This document shows, piece by piece, positions 2,239-60,513 of a DNA stretch of 64,000 bases; position 1 is the stretch's first letter, and each line of letters opens with the position of its first letter. The stretch is from Streptomyces sp. NBC_01264 (GTDB lineage Bacteria > Actinomycetota > Actinomycetes > Streptomycetales > Streptomycetaceae), in assembly GCF_026340675.1 (NCBI RefSeq), contig NZ_JAPEOX010000001.1:620001-684000 (forward strand), read 5' to 3'. Both the position numbers and the translations under genes were made by a program. A model generated the notes under the pieces. It saw nothing but the letters and a program-made list of their open reading frames with translations. It was not told the origin of the DNA and ran no database searches.

Positions 2239-3198
2239 TTAGGGAAGCGGCCCGCCCCGGGCCGTGAGCCACAGCGAGTACCACTCCTCGTGACCCAGGT
2301 CCGGGGCCCGCAGCGCGGCGTCGCGGCAGGCCCGGATGCGCTCGGGGCGGCCGGTGCCGATGACGGGGGCGATCCGGGCCGGGTGGCGTTGCAGCCACCA
2401 CAGCAGGATCGTCTCCGGGGTCGTGTCCTTCGCCTTGGCCAGGGCGCGCAGGTGCTCGGCGGTCGCGTGCTCCCCCACGCTCGACTCCCGTCCGGTGAAG
2501 CGTCCTTGGGCCAGGGAGCCGTAGGCCTGGAGGCGGACCCCGTTCGCCGTGCAGTACTCGACGGTGCTGGACGGGAATCCGACGGCCGCCGAGGCCGGGG
2601 TGTTGACGAGGACCCCGTCCTCCAGCCAGTCCCGCCGGTCCAGGCTCATTTCCAGCTGGTTGGCGACGAGCGGCAGGTCGAGCTGGCGTTGCAGGTGCGC
2701 GATCTGCGCGGCGTTCATGTTGGAGACGCCGAACCGCTTCACGAGGCCCTGGCGGTGCAGCGAGGTGAGTGCCTCGGCGATCTCCGCCGGGTCCGCCAGG
2801 GGGTCGGGCCGGTGCAGGAGCAGGACGTCGATGACGTCGGTGCGCAGCCGCGCGAGGCTCTCCTCGACGCGGCTGACGATGCTCGCGCCCCGCAGGTCGT
2901 AGATGCCGGGGCGGTCGCCTTCGGCGAGCCGGATGCCGCACTTGGTCTGCAGCGTGATGCGCTCGCGCAGGCCGGGGGTGCGGGCCAGCACCTCGCCGAA
3001 GACGGCTTCCGCCTTTCCGTGCCGGTAGATGTCGGCGTGGTCGAACATCGTGATGCCGCTGTCGAGGGCGGCCTCGATCGCCGCCTCGGCCTCGTCGATG
3101 TCCTCGGCCCGGTACGGGCCGGGCTCCCAGCTCCCGCCGAGAGCCATGCAGCCGTAGATCAACCGGTTGTCGTCCGTCGCTGGTTCCGTGATCGCCAT
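2239..3198 (-). CDS. Aldo/keto reductase
   Basis: This 319-residue protein is the normal length for the aldo/keto reductase TIM-barrel family, NADPH-dependent carbonyl reductases. The catalytic tetrad can be read as Asp53 and Tyr58 (in FDHADIYRHGKAE), Lys86 (LQTKCG) and His129 (LLHRPDP). GVSNMNAAQI and the C-terminal GTGRPERI match the conserved strand and the NADPH-phosphate-binding region. It resembles the YdhF-like oxidoreductase subgroup. It lies nine bases from the stop of the peroxidase gene upstream, so it may be the last gene of that operon. The substrate is unknown. Confidence 0.9.
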   Translation of the reverse strand: MAITEPATDDNRLIYGCMALGGSWEPGPYRAEDIDEAEAAIEAALDSGITMFDHADIYRHGKAEAVFGEVLARTPGLRERITLQTKCGIRLAEGDRPGIYDLRGASIVSRVEESLARLRTDVIDVLLLHRPDPLADPAEIAEALTSLHRQGLVKRFGVSNMNAAQIAHLQRQLDLPLVANQLEMSLDRRDWLEDGVLVNTPASAAVGFPSSTVEYCTANGVRLQAYGSLAQGRFTGRESSVGEHATAEHLRALAKAKDTTPETILLWWLQRHPARIAPVIGTGRPERIRACRDAALRAPDLGHEEWYSLWLTARGGPLP

Positions 3199-3207
3199 GC
3201 GGTCACC

Positions 3208-5214
3208 CTACGAGGCGGACGCCTTCCACAGCACCCGGGTCCCGGCCAGGATCACCAGCTCTCCGGAGGGGCGCAGCAGCAGGCGCGCGCCGGGGTGGCC
3301 GCCGGTTCCGCTGGACCAGACCGTGCCGCCGTCGGCGTCGCGCACGAGCAGTTCGCCGTCCTGGGTGAGCACGGCGTCGCGGCCGACGCCACCGGTGTAC
3401 GTACGCCAGGTACGGGCGCCGCCGGCGTCGAGCAGGGCGAGGTCGCCCGAGGCGTCCAGGGTCAGCCGGGCCTTGCCCGCGTCGAGGACGTCGCCCGGGC
3501 GCAGGACCGAGCCGGTGTGGAACTCGATGGAGGCGTCGAGCTGGCCCTTGGCCAAGGCGCGCAAAACGGGGAGGGAGGGGCTGAAGGCGTAGACCGATCC
3601 CTCGGTGCGGACGAACCGGCCGAAGTGGAGGGTGTTGGCCCGGCTGCCGGTGCCGTCCGCCGAGGGGGTTTCGAAGGCGATGGCCGAATCGGGGCCGAGC
3701 ACCGGGTCGCAGCCGGCGCGCGGGTTGCGGCCGGCCGGGAAGTCGGGGTCGTTCACCCACTTGCGCATCACCAGCTCGAACTGCCCCACCAGGTCCGACT
3801 GGTGGCAGACGAAGACCAGCCCGCGCTCGGCCTGCGGACCGTGCTCCTCGCCCAGTTCGGGCTTGTAGACGGGGCCGTACGGGATTCCGCGCCGCATCAG
3901 TCGCCGCGCGTCGAGCTCCGCCTGGGCCACCGGGGGGCGGCCCGGGGTGAGGACGAGGCCGCCGCGCGGGTTCCCCTTGCGGATGTGCGCGAAGAGCGGC
4001 ATCCCCCAGCCCTGCGGGTCCTGGCCGTAGTCGAGCCCGGCGTCGGGGTGCTTGCCCGGCGCGGGCAGTTGCTCGGCCGCGGGACACAGGGAGACCGGCA
4101 TGCCGCCCGGCCAGCGGCCCATCAGGCGGGCTCCGAGCCATTCGCGGCCGGCGTCGGCGGGCGCGGCGCCCGCGCGCTGGAGATCGGAGAGGCGCAGGGC
4201 GACCTGCGTCCACCAGCCGGGCACGTCCTGCGCGAGGCGGCGTACCACCTGGAAGGCCCCGCCGGTGGCCCAGGCGGGCAGACCCGTGGGGCGCTTGTTC
4301 ACCCGCTCGGGGCCGACCACGAACTCGCCCGCGGGGATCAGCCGGGTTCCGGGCTTGCCGAGCACGCCGGAGGCGTCGGCCGGGTCGGGCTCGTCGAAGC
4401 CCCGTACGCCGGGCTGGCTGATGCAGTCGAGGAAGCCGAAGTGCTCGTGCCCGCGCAGCTCCCCGGGGAGGGTGGCCCCGTCCTGGCGGAACAGGACCGT
4501 CACGCCGTCCGCGGCGGCGGCCGCGCGGTGTTCGGCGACGGCGGTGGCGAGGCGTTCGGGCTGGTCGGCGGCGAGCGTGAGGACCACGTGCACCGCGCGG
4601 GCGGGCTCCTCGGCGCCGAACAGCCAGGACTGCGGGGCGCTGGTTCCGGTGTCGCCGAGCAGCTGCGCGCGGGCCGCGGAGCCCTGGGTGAAGGCCTCGG
4701 CGCTGGACCCGGCCGGGGCGGCGGGGAAGGGCTCCTTGCCCGACAGCAGGCGCAGCCCCGGATGGGTCAGGCCGATCCCGGTCCACAGGGTGGCCATGGA
4801 TTCGGGGTCGATGCCGCCCCTCAGCCGGCGGGCCCTGCTGAAGGCCCGGTTGAAGCGGGCCACTTCCTCGGTGGTGGAGATCGAGGGCAGCAGGCGGGTC
4901 AGCCAGCTCCGGGCCTTGACGGCGTCGCCGAAGTGGAGGAAGAGGAAGCAGGCGTGGTCCTTGCGGAACCCGGCGAGGATGTCGCCCTGGGACTCGCGGT
5001 CGGTGCGCAGCGGAAGGGGAGCGGGGGCGGTGTCCCTCCGCGCGGGCTCCGCGTCCGGGCCTGCCGCCGGGCGGGCCGGTGCCTCGGCGGCCCACGCCGT
5101 GGGCGCGAGGCCCGCGGTGAGACCGGCGGCGGCGAGGGCCGCCGCCTGGACCACGGTCCTGCGGGCGGGTCCGGTGTGGGGGCAGCCCGGGGGCGGCGAC
5201 GGGGCGAGGACCAT
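3208..5214 (-). CDS. Tat-exported Dyp-type peroxidase with C-terminal bulb-lectin-like domain
   Basis: The 668-residue protein begins with a Tat-type signal (ARRTVVQAAALAAAGLTAG). Residues about 60-540 form a dye-decolorizing peroxidase: FGFLDCISQPG stands where the family has GxxDG, AHIRKGNPRGG carries the proximal haem histidine, and RRGIPYGP carries the conserved distal-side arginines. The last 110 residues (VLRPGDVLDAG, DGELLVRDADGGTVW, LLLRPSGELVI) repeat like a bulb-type mannose-binding lectin domain. The ATG at 5214 follows TTGGAG at good spacing. The expected role is extracellular haem-peroxide chemistry targeted to a carbohydrate surface. The Cys in place of the second Gly of GxxDG is unusual. 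Confidence 0.85.
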   Translation of the reverse strand: MVLAPSPPPGCPHTGPARRTVVQAAALAAAGLTAGLAPTAWAAEAPARPAAGPDAEPARRDTAPAPLPLRTDRESQGDILAGFRKDHACFLFLHFGDAVKARSWLTRLLPSISTTEEVARFNRAFSRARRLRGGIDPESMATLWTGIGLTHPGLRLLSGKEPFPAAPAGSSAEAFTQGSAARAQLLGDTGTSAPQSWLFGAEEPARAVHVVLTLAADQPERLATAVAEHRAAAAADGVTVLFRQDGATLPGELRGHEHFGFLDCISQPGVRGFDEPDPADASGVLGKPGTRLIPAGEFVVGPERVNKRPTGLPAWATGGAFQVVRRLAQDVPGWWTQVALRLSDLQRAGAAPADAGREWLGARLMGRWPGGMPVSLCPAAEQLPAPGKHPDAGLDYGQDPQGWGMPLFAHIRKGNPRGGLVLTPGRPPVAQAELDARRLMRRGIPYGPVYKPELGEEHGPQAERGLVFVCHQSDLVGQFELVMRKWVNDPDFPAGRNPRAGCDPVLGPDSAIAFETPSADGTGSRANTLHFGRFVRTEGSVYAFSPSLPVLRALAKGQLDASIEFHTGSVLRPGDVLDAGKARLTLDASGDLALLDAGGARTWRTYTGGVGRDAVLTQDGELLVRDADGGTVWSSGTGGHPGARLLLRPSGELVILAGTRVLWKASAS

Positions 5215-55173: not shown

Positions 55174-56751
55174 TCACCCGGGGGGTGCGCCCGGGCCGAG
55201 GAGTTGGATCTCGCGGGCGGCACGCGGGGAGTGGACACCCCGGTTGAGGGCTTCGGCGTACCGCAGTTCGGCGGCGGCCTCCCGCTCCCGGCCGCCGAGC
55301 CGGTACAGCCGGGCCCGTTCCACGTGGGTGAGCATGATCGCGCGTTCCTGCTGGGCGGGGCGGGACGCCAGCGAGGCGTCCAGCGCGGCGTGGGCCGCGG
55401 GGTGGTCCCCCAGCAGGCCGAGGACCACCGCGCGCTTGAACTCCAGGGCGGCCGGGCGGTACGTGTGGAAGGGGTCCGGCTCGCCGACGGCGGCTCCCTG
55501 CGCCCGGTCGGCGGCGTCGAGCCAGGCGAGGGCCTCCGCGCGGTGCCCCAGGGCAGCGTGCACCTGGGCCGCCTGGGCGGCGACGAAGGCCCGTACGGCG
55601 TCGGGGGCGCGCGGGGCGATCTCCAGCGCCTGGCGTACGTAGGAGAGCGCGACGGCCGGCTGGTTCTGGTCGAGGGCGTCCTGGCTGAGCATGCGCAGGG
55701 CGATGGCCTGGGTGGAGGGCTCCCCCGCCAGCTCGGCGAGGGCGGCGGCCCGGCTCAGGGTCCGCCGTGCCTCGGCGAAGGAGCACTGGTCGGCGTAACT
55801 GCGGGCCAGGAGCAGCACCGTGCGCGCGGCGTGGCCGATCTCCAGGGCGGACAGGGAGCCTTCGTCCCCGGTGGTGGTCAGGGCCGTACGGAAGGTGCTC
55901 TGGAGGTACGCGAGGAGTACGGGCGCGGTGGCGTCCCCGCCGAGGGCGTCGACCTGGCCGGTGAAGAAGCTCTCGGCGGCCCGGCGCAGCTCGGTGTGCG
56001 ACAGGGCCGGGACCTGGCCGGCGTCGGCCTCGAGACGGCGGGGCTCGGCACCGGACCCCAAACCGGGCTCGGAGCCGGCTCCGGGTGCGGGGCCGGGTTC
56101 GGCGCCGGGCCCGGGGCCGGGCCCGGGGCCGGGTTCGGCTCCGGGTGCGGGGCCGGGTTCTGAACCAGTTGCGGCGCCGGGTCCGGAAGCAGCGCCGGGT
56201 CCGGAACCAGACCCGCTGCCGGGTTCGGACCCGGCTCCAGCTCCGGAACCGCCCCCGATGCCGCCGCCCTGCGGGCCCCCGCCCGCGCGGGCGGCCCCGG
56301 GCGCGGATCCGGCGCGTTCGCGCTGTCCGGGGACCCTGGGCGCCCCGCCGCCGCCGCGGGGCCTGCGGTGCGGGTGCAGGCCGGGCACGGTGGCGAGGAG
56401 CTCCGCCGCCAGGGCGTGCGGTCCGGGCGCCGGATCGCGGCCGGAGGGGTCGGTGCCCGGACGGCCCGAGGCGGTGTGGTTGATGCCGGTGTGGCCCAGG
56501 CCGGCCCGGTGCATGCCGATGTCGGCCGGGCTCACGGGCCGGTCCAGCCGGGCGGCGAGGATCTCGCAGAGCAGGCCGGGGACGGGATCGCGCGGGGTGC
56601 TGCCGCGCAGCCAGTGGGCGACCGAGGTCCGGTCGTACCCGGTGGTGAGTCCGACCGACCGCGCGCTCGTGTTGAGCCGCCGGGCCAGGGCCTCGTAGGT
56701 CCAGCCGGTTTCCCTGATCAGGCGGTGCAGGAGGTGGTTGGCAGCGGGCAC
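55174..56751 (-). CDS. HTH/TPR regulatory protein with Gly-Pro-rich linker
   Basis: The 525-residue protein has an N-terminal HTH-like domain (LIRETGWTYEALARRLNTSA, YDRTSVAHWLRGSTPR), a low-complexity Gly/Pro/Ala/Glu/Ser linker of about 90 residues (roughly 140-232; SEPGSGSGSGPGAASGPG, GAEPGPGPGPGPGAEPGP) and a C-terminal TPR-like helical region (FAEARRTLSRAAALAELAGE, ALSYVRQALEIAPRAPDAV). It resembles the NsdA-type transcriptional regulators of Streptomyces. The linker length is probably variable between strains. Confidence 0.82.
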   Translation of the reverse strand: MPAANHLLHRLIRETGWTYEALARRLNTSARSVGLTTGYDRTSVAHWLRGSTPRDPVPGLLCEILAARLDRPVSPADIGMHRAGLGHTGINHTASGRPGTDPSGRDPAPGPHALAAELLATVPGLHPHRRPRGGGGAPRVPGQRERAGSAPGAARAGGGPQGGGIGGGSGAGAGSEPGSGSGSGPGAASGPGAATGSEPGPAPGAEPGPGPGPGPGAEPGPAPGAGSEPGLGSGAEPRRLEADAGQVPALSHTELRRAAESFFTGQVDALGGDATAPVLLAYLQSTFRTALTTTGDEGSLSALEIGHAARTVLLLARSYADQCSFAEARRTLSRAAALAELAGEPSTQAIALRMLSQDALDQNQPAVALSYVRQALEIAPRAPDAVRAFVAAQAAQVHAALGHRAEALAWLDAADRAQGAAVGEPDPFHTYRPAALEFKRAVVLGLLGDHPAAHAALDASLASRPAQQERAIMLTHVERARLYRLGGREREAAAELRYAEALNRGVHSPRAAREIQLLGPGAPPG

Positions 56752-59367: not shown

Positions 59368-59397
59368 CGGCACGGCGGCCGGTCGCCGAACGTGACG

Positions 59398-59428
59398 GAG
59401 CCCGGGAGCATGTCCAGCTCCCGGGCTC
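59398..59428. terminator. 12-bp hairpin between anti-sigma gene and tRNA-like RNAs
   Basis: GAGCCCGGGAGC and its exact complement enclose the loop ATGTCCA. It follows the anti-sigma stop by 30 bases on the plus strand and the second tRNA-like RNA by about 22 bases on the minus strand, so it may end both transcripts. Confidence 0.8.
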
Positions 59429-59449
59429 CAGCTTGCCACCCATTTGCGC

Positions 59450-59588
59450 ACACCGGCGGCGTTTAAGAGCCGCGGGTCATCTTGAGATCGACGTGTTCTG
59501 CCGTTGAACTACAGCGCCATGCAAGAGGCGCCGAAGGGACTTGAACCCCTATCCGTCAATGTTCGCCCGCGCTCGGTCGATCCGGTGT
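59450..59588 (-). ncRNA. Permuted tRNA-like RNA 2 (Y RNA-like)
   Basis: Minus strand, 5' to 3': flanking strands ACACCGG and GAGCGCGGG; ATTGACG; T-arm AGGGG-TTCAAGT-CCCTT (59550-59534); acceptor 3' strand CGGCGCC (59533-59527); 8-base loop TCTTGCAT; acceptor 5' strand GGCGCTG (59518-59512); TA; D-arm GTTC-AACGGCA-GAAC (59509-59495); CGTCGAT; then CCCGC, GCTC and CCGGTGT. CGTCGAT pairs with ATTGACG, CCCGC(G)GCTC with GAGCGCGGG, and CCGGTGT with ACACCGG. Invariant tRNA bases U8, A14, G18, G19, G53, U54, U55, C56, A58 and C61 are kept. There is no anticodon loop and no CCA. The tRNA halves are in reversed order, as in YrlA Y RNAs. Confidence 0.8.
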
Positions 59589-59594
59589 TCGGCG

Positions 59595-59739
59595 GCGAAT
59601 ACTGAGACTGGAGCGAGAATCTGAGATTTACGGGGCCGCCTCTGCCGGCTTGGGCCACCCCCGCACGTGTGCGGGGGGAGGGATTCGAACCCCCACCTGA
59701 CACCCCATGATCAGCTTCAACATCAGTTTCAGCTTGCGC
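59595..59739 (-). ncRNA. Permuted tRNA-like RNA 1 (Y RNA-like)
   Basis: Minus strand, 5' to 3': flanking strands GCGCAAG, CTGAAACTG and GAAGCTGA; ATGGGGT (59708-59702); 7-base variable region GTCAGGT; T-arm GGGGG-TTCGAAT-CCCTC (59694-59678); acceptor 3' strand CCCCCGC (59677-59671); 6-base loop ACACGT; acceptor 5' strand GCGGGGG (59664-59658); TG; D-arm GCC-12-base loop-GGC with G18G19; GCCCCGT; then TCAGATTC, CAGTCTCAG and TATTCGC. GCCCCGT pairs with ATGGGGT, TCAGATTC with GAAGCTGA (one mismatch), CAGTCTCAG with CTGAAACTG (one mismatch). The tRNA T- and D-arm invariants are all present. Same architecture as RNA 2 with little sequence identity outside the arms, so the fold is what is conserved. 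Confidence 0.8.
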
Positions 59740-59749
59740 TCATCGCGCA

Positions 59750-59770
59750 CCCCCCGCTCGCGACGGGGGG
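59750..59770 (-). promoter_or_regulatory. Hairpin between the protein gene and the first tRNA-like RNA
   Basis: CCCCCCG and CGGGGGG pair across a 7-base loop, directly upstream (minus strand) of RNA 1 and 12 bases past the stop of the 243-codon gene. It could be an attenuator, processing boundary or terminator. A second small hairpin (GGCTACC / GGTAGCC) covers the last codons of that gene. Confidence 0.5.
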
Positions 59771-59781
59771 CGAATGTGGGG

Positions 59782-60513
59782 CTACCCGAAGAGGTAGCCG
59801 AATACCGCGTCACCGATCCGCTGGTCGGTGACCTCGGTGTTGTTCGCCTCCTCGCGGGCGAACTTGACGGACTGCTGGAGCTTCTCGACCCGGTCGAGGA
59901 GCTCGTTGACCCGCCGGGCGGGCAGCGCGCCGGAGAACTTCACGGTGGTCCAGTAACCGACCGCCACGTCCTCGTAGTACACCTCGACCTGCGCCGGGTG
60001 CTTCTCCGTGGCCTCCGCCTTGACGTGGTTGCGCGGGACCTTCTTCGTGCGGATGGTCCGCACCGCGTCCGTCTTCCAGGCGTCCGTCGAGGGGTCCAGG
60101 TTCCACGATTCGGAGGCGTCGAGCACCGGCAGCTTGCGCACGAAGGTGTGCAGGTCGGTGAGCTGCTTCTCCAGGAACAGCAGGTACGGGACGGGCACCT
60201 GCGGCAGCAGGACCCTGCCGTCGACCACCACGTCCGCGACCGCGGACCGGTTCGCCCAGTCCTTCGTCGCGGTCACGTCGAAGAGCCGGGTGAGCGTCGA
60301 GGCGGTCGCCCGCAGGGCGTCCTCGGCCTTGATCTGGACCCGGGTGGACTCGGGCGGGAGCTGCTCGCCCTCCTCGTCCTTGGGCTGGTAGGTCCGGGAG
60401 ATGCCGGCCAGCAGGGCGGGCTTCTGCACGTCCTGGTGAGCCTGGGTGAGCTCCTGGAGGGCCTTGGACTTGACGCCCTTTTCGACTGCGATGATCTGAT
60501 TCAGCTTCGGCAC
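59782..60513 (-). CDS. Conserved uncharacterised protein next to the tRNA-like RNAs (DUF7873-like)
   Basis: The 243-residue soluble protein begins MPKLNQIIAVEKGVKSKALQ, with a helical N-terminus (ELTQAHQDVQKPALLAGISR), a conserved-looking YQPKDEEGEQLPPEST segment, LTRLFDVTATKDWANRS, a Lys/Arg-rich stretch (RTIRTKKVPRNHVKAEATEK) that could contact RNA, and a C-terminal helix (RVNELLDRVEKLQQSVKFAR). No membrane segment and no known catalytic motif. From memory, related actinobacterial and phage sequences are catalogued as DUF7873. The start is GTG at 60513; TAGGTT six bases before it hints at a leaderless message. It lies just upstream of the two RNAs on the same strand, so a shared transcript is likely. 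Confidence 0.8.
   Translation of the reverse strand: MPKLNQIIAVEKGVKSKALQELTQAHQDVQKPALLAGISRTYQPKDEEGEQLPPESTRVQIKAEDALRATASTLTRLFDVTATKDWANRSAVADVVVDGRVLLPQVPVPYLLFLEKQLTDLHTFVRKLPVLDASESWNLDPSTDAWKTDAVRTIRTKKVPRNHVKAEATEKHPAQVEVYYEDVAVGYWTTVKFSGALPARRVNELLDRVEKLQQSVKFAREEANNTEVTDQRIGDAVFGYLFG

Follow-up and report, generated by a model that had tools for sequence, protein, structure and literature searches.

A DUF7873 gene and an adjoining predicted RNA with two circularly permuted tRNA-like arms form a conserved module in Streptomyces and phages

To our knowledge, permuted tRNA mimicry in bacterial ribonucleoproteins (RNPs) has so far comprised the Y RNAs that go with Ro60 and permuted tmRNA. 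The YrlA-type Y RNAs contain one tRNA-like domain in an RNA of 90 to 150 nt. This domain is modified by DusA and TruB, and YrlA tethers Rsr to PNPase (PMC8394870). The literature mentions YrlA-like RNAs in phages (PMC7765460) and in mycobacteria (PMC9569102), so single units of the RNA described here may already be listed in print as YrlA. Permuted tmRNA is cut into two pieces by tRNA-processing enzymes (PMC11915505). The permuted tRNA genes of algae and one archaeon place the 3' half before the 5' half, with an intervening loop (PMC3978253).

The locus described here lies on the minus strand of a 64,000-nt window, the whole stretch of DNA that was analyzed, from a 10.67-Mb Streptomyces genome. 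It shares with YrlA a permuted order of T-arm, acceptor 3' strand, loop, acceptor 5' strand, U8, and D-arm, closed by a long stem. It differs from YrlA in the core of the RNA and in its partner, which is TROVE there and DUF7873 here. It also differs in size and domain number, with two mimics in one block of about 350 nt predicted from conservation. It resembles two-piece tmRNA in the permuted topology of the tRNA domain and in the loop between the acceptor strands, but it has two tRNA domains, no tmRNA match, and no G3-U70 pair. Unlike the products of permuted tRNA genes, its units have no anticodon loop. OLE, GOLLD, and ROOL are large structured RNAs, some of them phage-borne. The module RNA is smaller than these and carries paired tRNA mimics, and Rfam gave no match to any of the three in the window, where no family reached the gathering threshold.

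The predicted protein partner is encoded at 59782 to 60513 on the minus strand. It contains 243 amino acids and belongs to DUF7873 (PF25283; E 2.3e-120), which was its only Pfam match, with none to TROVE. On the same strand, the gene is followed by a GC-rich hairpin (59750 to 59770; CCCCCCG-TCGCGAG-CGGGGGG), the repeat-rich left strand of helix P1, unit 1, the right strand of P1, the left strand of P2, unit 2, the right strand of P2, and a 14-bp hairpin. From the block conserved in relatives, one RNA of about 350 nt that includes both tRNA-mimic arms is predicted, running from 59741 to 59396; both ends are estimates. R1, a covariance model that covers unit 2 and its flanks and was built from 37 sequences, scores 147 bits at this locus, which is itself one of the training sequences. 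ARAGORN called no tRNA in the 59396 to 59741 block, and a simple scan found neither a U-rich terminator nor a sigma-70 promoter. Elsewhere in the window, ARAGORN called a tRNA-Pro at 56079 to 56154 (plus strand), opposite a repetitive coding region; this call is probably false.

The initial annotation had described two circularly permuted tRNA-like units at 59450 to 59739. Both were found there on the minus strand, with their T-arms, 7-bp acceptors, and D-arms, and both have the permuted order that it had given. Its interval was too short, because the conserved feature extends to the 3' hairpin at 59396 to 59430 and goes with the DUF7873 gene.

The T-arm of unit 1 (59678 to 59694; GGGGG-TTCGAAT-CCCTC) was located in the sequence and by a descriptor scan. 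Its acceptor (59658 to 59677) pairs CCCCCGC with GCGGGGG over 7 bp across a 6-nt loop, ACACGT. U8 and the D-arm, TGGCCCAAGCCGGCAGAGGC, are at 59638 to 59657, read from the sequence and supported by family covariation at the Levitt pair. At the place of the anticodon stem, 59702 to 59708 pairs with 59630 to 59636 over 7 bp (ATGGGGT/GCCCCGT, with two G-U pairs). Outside this stem are the left strand of P1 (59711 to 59741), an array of YUNA elements recognized by their spacing, and the right strand (59598 to 59626) with a conserved TCAGAYTMTCGCTCCAGWCTCAG. The two strands of P1 pair irregularly, as judged by duplex energy.

The T-arm of unit 2 (59534 to 59550; AGGGG-TTCAAGT-CCCTT) was located in the same way. 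Its acceptor (59512 to 59533) pairs CGGCGCC with GGCGCTG over 7 bp, including one G-U, across an 8-nt loop, TCTTGCAT. U8 and the D-arm, TAGTTCAACGGCAGAAC, are at 59495 to 59511, from the descriptor scan and the sequence. The anticodon-stem place again pairs over 7 bp (59554 to 59560 with 59487 to 59493; ATTGACG/CGTCGAT, with one G-U). P2 is formed by a left strand at 59565 to 59587, with the conserved internal-loop strand ATCGAC, and a right strand at 59451 to 59476, with a conserved CTTAAACG. The 3'-terminal hairpin (59396 to 59430) has 14 bp and the loop TGGACAT; the family loop is mostly NGGAYAY or NGGCTAC.

The sequence and the helix tests bear out the initial proposal that the stem at the anticodon-stem place continues, in both units, into longer helices; it also runs into internal loops. 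An anticodon loop, a feature of functional permuted tRNAs, is absent from the aligned family structures. No decoding tRNA is expected, because the anticodon-stem place runs into P1 or P2.

Pairing in the acceptor, T-arm, and D-arm was built into the search rules, so counts of such pairs are no independent proof. The P2, Levitt pair, 3' hairpin, and P1 tests concern positions outside these rules, as the closing-helix test largely does. Of 196 loci, 50 were set aside because they lacked two units at the expected spacing, and the remaining 146 pairs were thinned to 65. The P2 test used 37 of the 65 (those with unit 2 loops of up to 12 nt, less one more where the locus ended). Its 17 pairs were formed in 93.6% of 622 cells, compared with 32 to 48% when the strands were slid, and 15 pairs had double changes. 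The covariation score was 0.655, compared with 0.13 to 0.17 when slid. In relatives, therefore, the pairs are kept by compensatory change, and for the pairing the initial proposal withstood its own refutation test. The helices closing both units scored higher than all 500 partner shuffles (14.3 versus at most 12.9 for unit 1; 15.5 versus at most 13.2 for unit 2). The shuffles here and below do not remove kinship among the loci. The unit 2 search window also reaches P2, so its result overlaps the covariation test.

P1 was assessed in two ways. In the P1 left strands of the 65 loci, a spacing of six bases between YUNA elements occurs 125 times, compared with 3.0 times in shuffles. The duplex of each left strand with its own right strand averages -19.8 kcal/mol, and the best of 300 shuffles gave -17.5 kcal/mol. 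For the 42 viral loci alone, the values were -17.5 and -15.3.

The Levitt pair, 15-48, was A-U in 236, G-C in 34, and another combination in 11 of 281 units with A14; a further 13 units, of 294 in all, lack A14 and were not counted. All 34 G-C pairs are viral, and the bacterial units have 121 A-U and 7 other combinations. The neighboring pair 15-47 shows no comparable one-to-one switch. Because the Levitt pair switches between A-U and G-C, both units very likely fold as real tRNA elbows. For the window RNA alone, the minimum-free-energy fold does not form unit 2 cleanly, and the centroid fold does. Its folding z-score is modest at -2.15, with 3 of 100 shuffles folding as well.

Decayed tandem tRNA genes could look permuted when neighboring halves are read together. 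Tandem tRNA-Asn genes are in fact a false-positive class for R1, at about 41 bits. They were found at four loci among the weaker R1 matches examined, along with TROVE-linked YrlA-like units and, by coordinates, unit 1. Such decay can hardly be credited here. The acceptor strands pair 7/7 within the unit in 60 and 63 of 65 loci, but across units in only 1 and 4 of 65. Only the cross-unit count is informative, since within-unit pairing belongs to the search rule. The flanking helices also covary. An ancestral origin of the units from tandem tRNAs is possible.

The initial annotation had expected two stable RNAs of about 140 nt. This was not supported. Between the first acceptor and the second T-loop lie 108 to 119 nt in 59 of 66 unit pairs and 122 to 243 nt in the others; the acceptor loops of the same pairs vary between 6 and 89 nt. 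Among 30 loci inspected by eye, five (L009, L015, L020, L021, and L027) have lost unit 1 or have a plain hairpin in its place, and all five retain the core. A 3' hairpin whose loop reads GG[ACT][TC]A was found in 48 of 64 tested loci, compared with a mean of 0.95 and a maximum of 3 in 20 shuffles. Because the spacing is near fixed, unit 1 is dispensable, and there is one common 3' hairpin, we infer that both units are arms of one conserved block, transcribed as a single RNA of about 350 nt and not as two.

A cis-acting 3' untranslated region (UTR) of the DUF7873 mRNA, controlling stability or translation through tRNA-binding proteins, would also lie where this RNA mostly lies, directly downstream on the same strand. 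The median distance from the stop codon to the first T-loop is 108 nt in 103 viral loci. Two viral loci make this reading improbable. In L108, the RNA is wholly upstream of DUF7873; the rule identified one of its units and inspection by eye the other. In L241, a further gene, seen by eye, separates DUF7873 from the RNA. The RNA is therefore not merely a 3' UTR.

The gene and the RNA occur together in Streptomyces relatives. We found 33 DUF7873 genes in 32 of 61 related genomes, and all 33 have the RNA adjoining, by comparison of R1 matches and gene coordinates by hand. R1 gave 31 full-length matches of 115.8 to 147.1 bits in 30 genomes, a match of 53 bits in G010, and one cut by a contig end in G051; some of these loci are R1 training sequences. 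None of the 29 genomes without DUF7873 had a full-length match among the best 50 candidates per genome under the stricter filters of Infernal. Across the phylum, DUF7873 was present in 7 of 396 genomes drawn, all in the genus of the window. The homologue search scored at least 7,553 relatives, and the matches listed come from Streptomycetaceae, a few other actinobacteria, and phages. The closest named relative found was from Streptomyces sp. AP-93, with 99% identity. Deinobacterium chartae, a control genome, has both a DUF7873 match and a TROVE match, and the protein therefore reaches outside actinobacteria and phages.

The AlphaFold2 model of DUF7873 is confident (pLDDT 94, pTM 0.79, 78 sequences) and contains long helices and a long beta hairpin. 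It gave no trustworthy match in the structure libraries. Searches with the protein found no sequence relative in the PDB, no resemblance in fold or sequence to known RNA-binding proteins, and no match in PHROGs, NCBIfam, or PADLOC. The neighbor clusters listed include no third gene that is conserved next to the module. In Rhodococcus phage NiceHouse, a band-7 membrane protein (L034, 3874 to 4746) follows the module; it was not recognized among those clusters. Band-7 membrane proteins are a neighbor type at Ro60 loci.

The initial comparison with YrlA was right about the permuted tRNA-mimic layout. At relaxed thresholds, YrlA (RF02553) is the best Rfam match for both window units, with 26.6 and 22.8 bits, below the gathering cutoff of 69. 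The YrlA-type reading did not carry over to the partner, because the RNA follows DUF7873, a gene that the initial annotation had missed, and not Ro60. YrlA scores reach 38.7 bits in a set of 19 loci and 37.6 bits in 7 phage loci. TROVE-linked Streptomyces units also fall below the cutoff, with a best score of 58.4 bits, so the cutoff alone cannot separate the two RNAs.

The genome of the window has a TROVE locus of its own (L001). Two YrlA-like permuted units lie there directly upstream of the Ro60-type gene (approximately 2570 to 2960, minus strand). They score 49.6 and 34.8 bits against Rfam YrlA, and one passes the descriptor. At least one unit was found by rule in 14 of 20 TROVE loci scanned, that locus included. 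Two units are also present at the TROVE loci L297, L304, L307, and L308 of relatives. R1 covers only the tRNA-like part of TROVE-linked units, apart from one weak full-length match of 31.6 bits. These units are separate from the DUF7873 module, and Streptomyces can therefore hold two separate permuted-tRNA systems. TROVE is present in 34 of the 61 relatives; 23 genomes have both genes, 9 have DUF7873 only, 11 have TROVE only, and 18 have neither.

These results bear on whether the units are two separate YrlA-type Y RNAs serving the Ro60 of the cell. The permuted layout is the same, YrlA is the best Rfam match, and the genome has a TROVE gene. Against this, no Ro60-type (TROVE) match was found in 9 of the 32 genomes that have both DUF7873 and the RNA, and the window genome and many relatives keep other YrlA-like units beside TROVE. 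The units also have a common core and near-fixed spacing, and the scores are 22 to 39 bits against the cutoff of 69, though this is not decisive alone. We regard two Y RNAs as very improbable.

Phages also carry the module. By tblastn, DUF7873 was found in 69 phage records with the window protein as the query and in 73 with a Klebsiella phage relative. These phages are named for Gordonia, Arthrobacter, Rhodococcus, Rhizobium, Vibrio, Klebsiella, Serratia, Pseudanabaena, and Microcoleus. Among the first seven phages, five carry a pair of units downstream of the gene, each 7/7-paired; in L035 one unit is clear and the other imperfect, and L037 has none. In a first strict scan, 45 of 79 viral and 23 of 80 bacterial loci had at least two units; these counts are low because its D-loop limit missed many first units. 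Scans of viral contigs together with ten named phages gave 117 distinct loci, 116 of them with enough downstream sequence. With a longer D-loop limit, 69 of these have two or more units within 650 nt downstream, 34 have one, and 13 have none. The 103 loci with units are above chance, since equal upstream windows of the 116 loci contained 5 units in total and the opposite downstream strand contained 1.

Inspection by eye of the 13 loci without units revealed degenerate units in L059, L068, L096, L100, and L273. Units are elsewhere or interrupted in L051, L108, L111, and L241, and none was seen in L037, L054, L085, and L106. By eye, the second unit of L100, L273, and L108 is permuted and has the T-loop GTGCAATTC, a T-arm variant shared by the three, and not TTCRANY. 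In L037, from a Microcoleus phage without the twin RNA, a HEARO RNA (129 bits) and an open reading frame lie after DUF7873, in the region 3247 to 4961. The open reading frame is of the IscB type, judged by its N-terminus. It is as if an IscB element had replaced the RNA. In Gordonia phage Phendrix (L033, 572 to 1100), a tmRNA match of 89 bits (cutoff 47) lies in the phage tRNA cluster.

The acceptor ends of the viral units carry further marks. After the acceptor, C74-Y75 is present in 117 of 156 units, the full NCCA in 55 of 156, and U at -1 in 93 of 152; these counts omit 5 of the 161 units, whose loops measure 13 to 15 nt. The marks are weaker in loops of at least 16 nt (45, 29, and 11 of 65 for C74-Y75, U-1, and NCCA, respectively). 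Such C74-Y75 and U-1 marks resemble pre-tRNA at RNase P sites. Pairing across the ends of the acceptor loop is possible in only 24 to 60 of the 161 units. The window units have ACAC and TCTT and no NCCA. The G3-U70 alanine pair is present in 3 of 161 viral units and absent from the window units. No tmRNA family appeared among the Rfam matches listed for the window, a listing that omits lower-scoring clan members where matches overlap. Across seven phage loci, the sole tmRNA-type match at the RNA was RF01850 in L038, with 24.8 bits against a cutoff of 84.

These marks would fit a tRNA-like adaptor made of several pieces, in which RNase P and 3' processing open both acceptor loops and leave helix-held pieces with chargeable, CCA-like ends. 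The rarity of possible loop-end pairing fits as well, and the permuted tmRNA that is cut in two is a precedent (PMC11915505). We consider this adaptor unlikely. The marks fade in the longer loops, the window units have no NCCA, 5 of 30 loci do without unit 1, and the window block has neither a tmRNA match nor the tmRNA-like G3-U70. A bolder form is a phage-spread DUF7873 RNP whose RNA has two complete, adjacent tRNA L-shapes and would be converted by RNase P into a three-piece RNA with two tRNA-like 3' ends, a two-headed tmRNA-like adaptor. This is quite unlikely. If true, it would be without a known counterpart, and its ends could be charged or be handed to the translation or tRNA-processing machinery.

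Annotated tRNA genes lie within 2.5 kb of the module in 7 of the 10 phage records opened; the other three have none annotated. This neighborhood would suit a decoy, in which phage tRNA mimics soak up or report host enzymes that attack tRNA and DUF7873 acts as a stabilizer. For YrlA itself, competitive inhibition of a tRNase has been proposed (PMC7790460). Anticodon nucleases are unlikely targets, because the units have no anticodon loop. There was also no PADLOC match, and a decoy leaves the resident copy in many Streptomyces unexplained. A decoy is therefore unlikely.

Our best reading is a DUF7873 RNP that is analogous to Ro60/YrlA yet distinct from it. The DUF7873 gene and one RNA would form a conserved module in which the protein binds the core and the two arms with swapped halves dock tRNA enzymes. 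We give this reading a probability of roughly 0.55. Sequence comparison supports the module and the shape of the RNA well; its expression, protein binding, and docking we infer. The block would be transcribed as one RNA of about 350 nt, and DUF7873 would bind P1, P2, or the 3' hairpin. The arms would be read by tRNA-handling proteins such as RNase P, TruB, Dus, or a nuclease. By analogy, the RNP might tether or compete for a tRNA enzyme, as YrlA does for Ro60 and PNPase.

The presence of the module in phages, with tRNA genes close by in most of the records opened, suggests a role in phage translation or in the quality control of tRNA during infection. Streptomyces may have acquired the module from phages. 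Searches of one open-access library turned up no account of the link to DUF7873 or of the twin arrangement. Permuted tRNA mimicry would occur twice in one predicted RNA, tied to a protein family unrelated to Ro60. If DUF7873 and the RNA work together, as is likely, this would be a new kind of tRNA-mimicry partnership. The reading would give DUF7873 a first testable function, and phage annotators would gain a missed RNA gene. The question of what purpose tRNA-mimic arms serve could then be asked of a second system, and one part of it can be tested directly through the RNase P-like marks at the acceptor loops.
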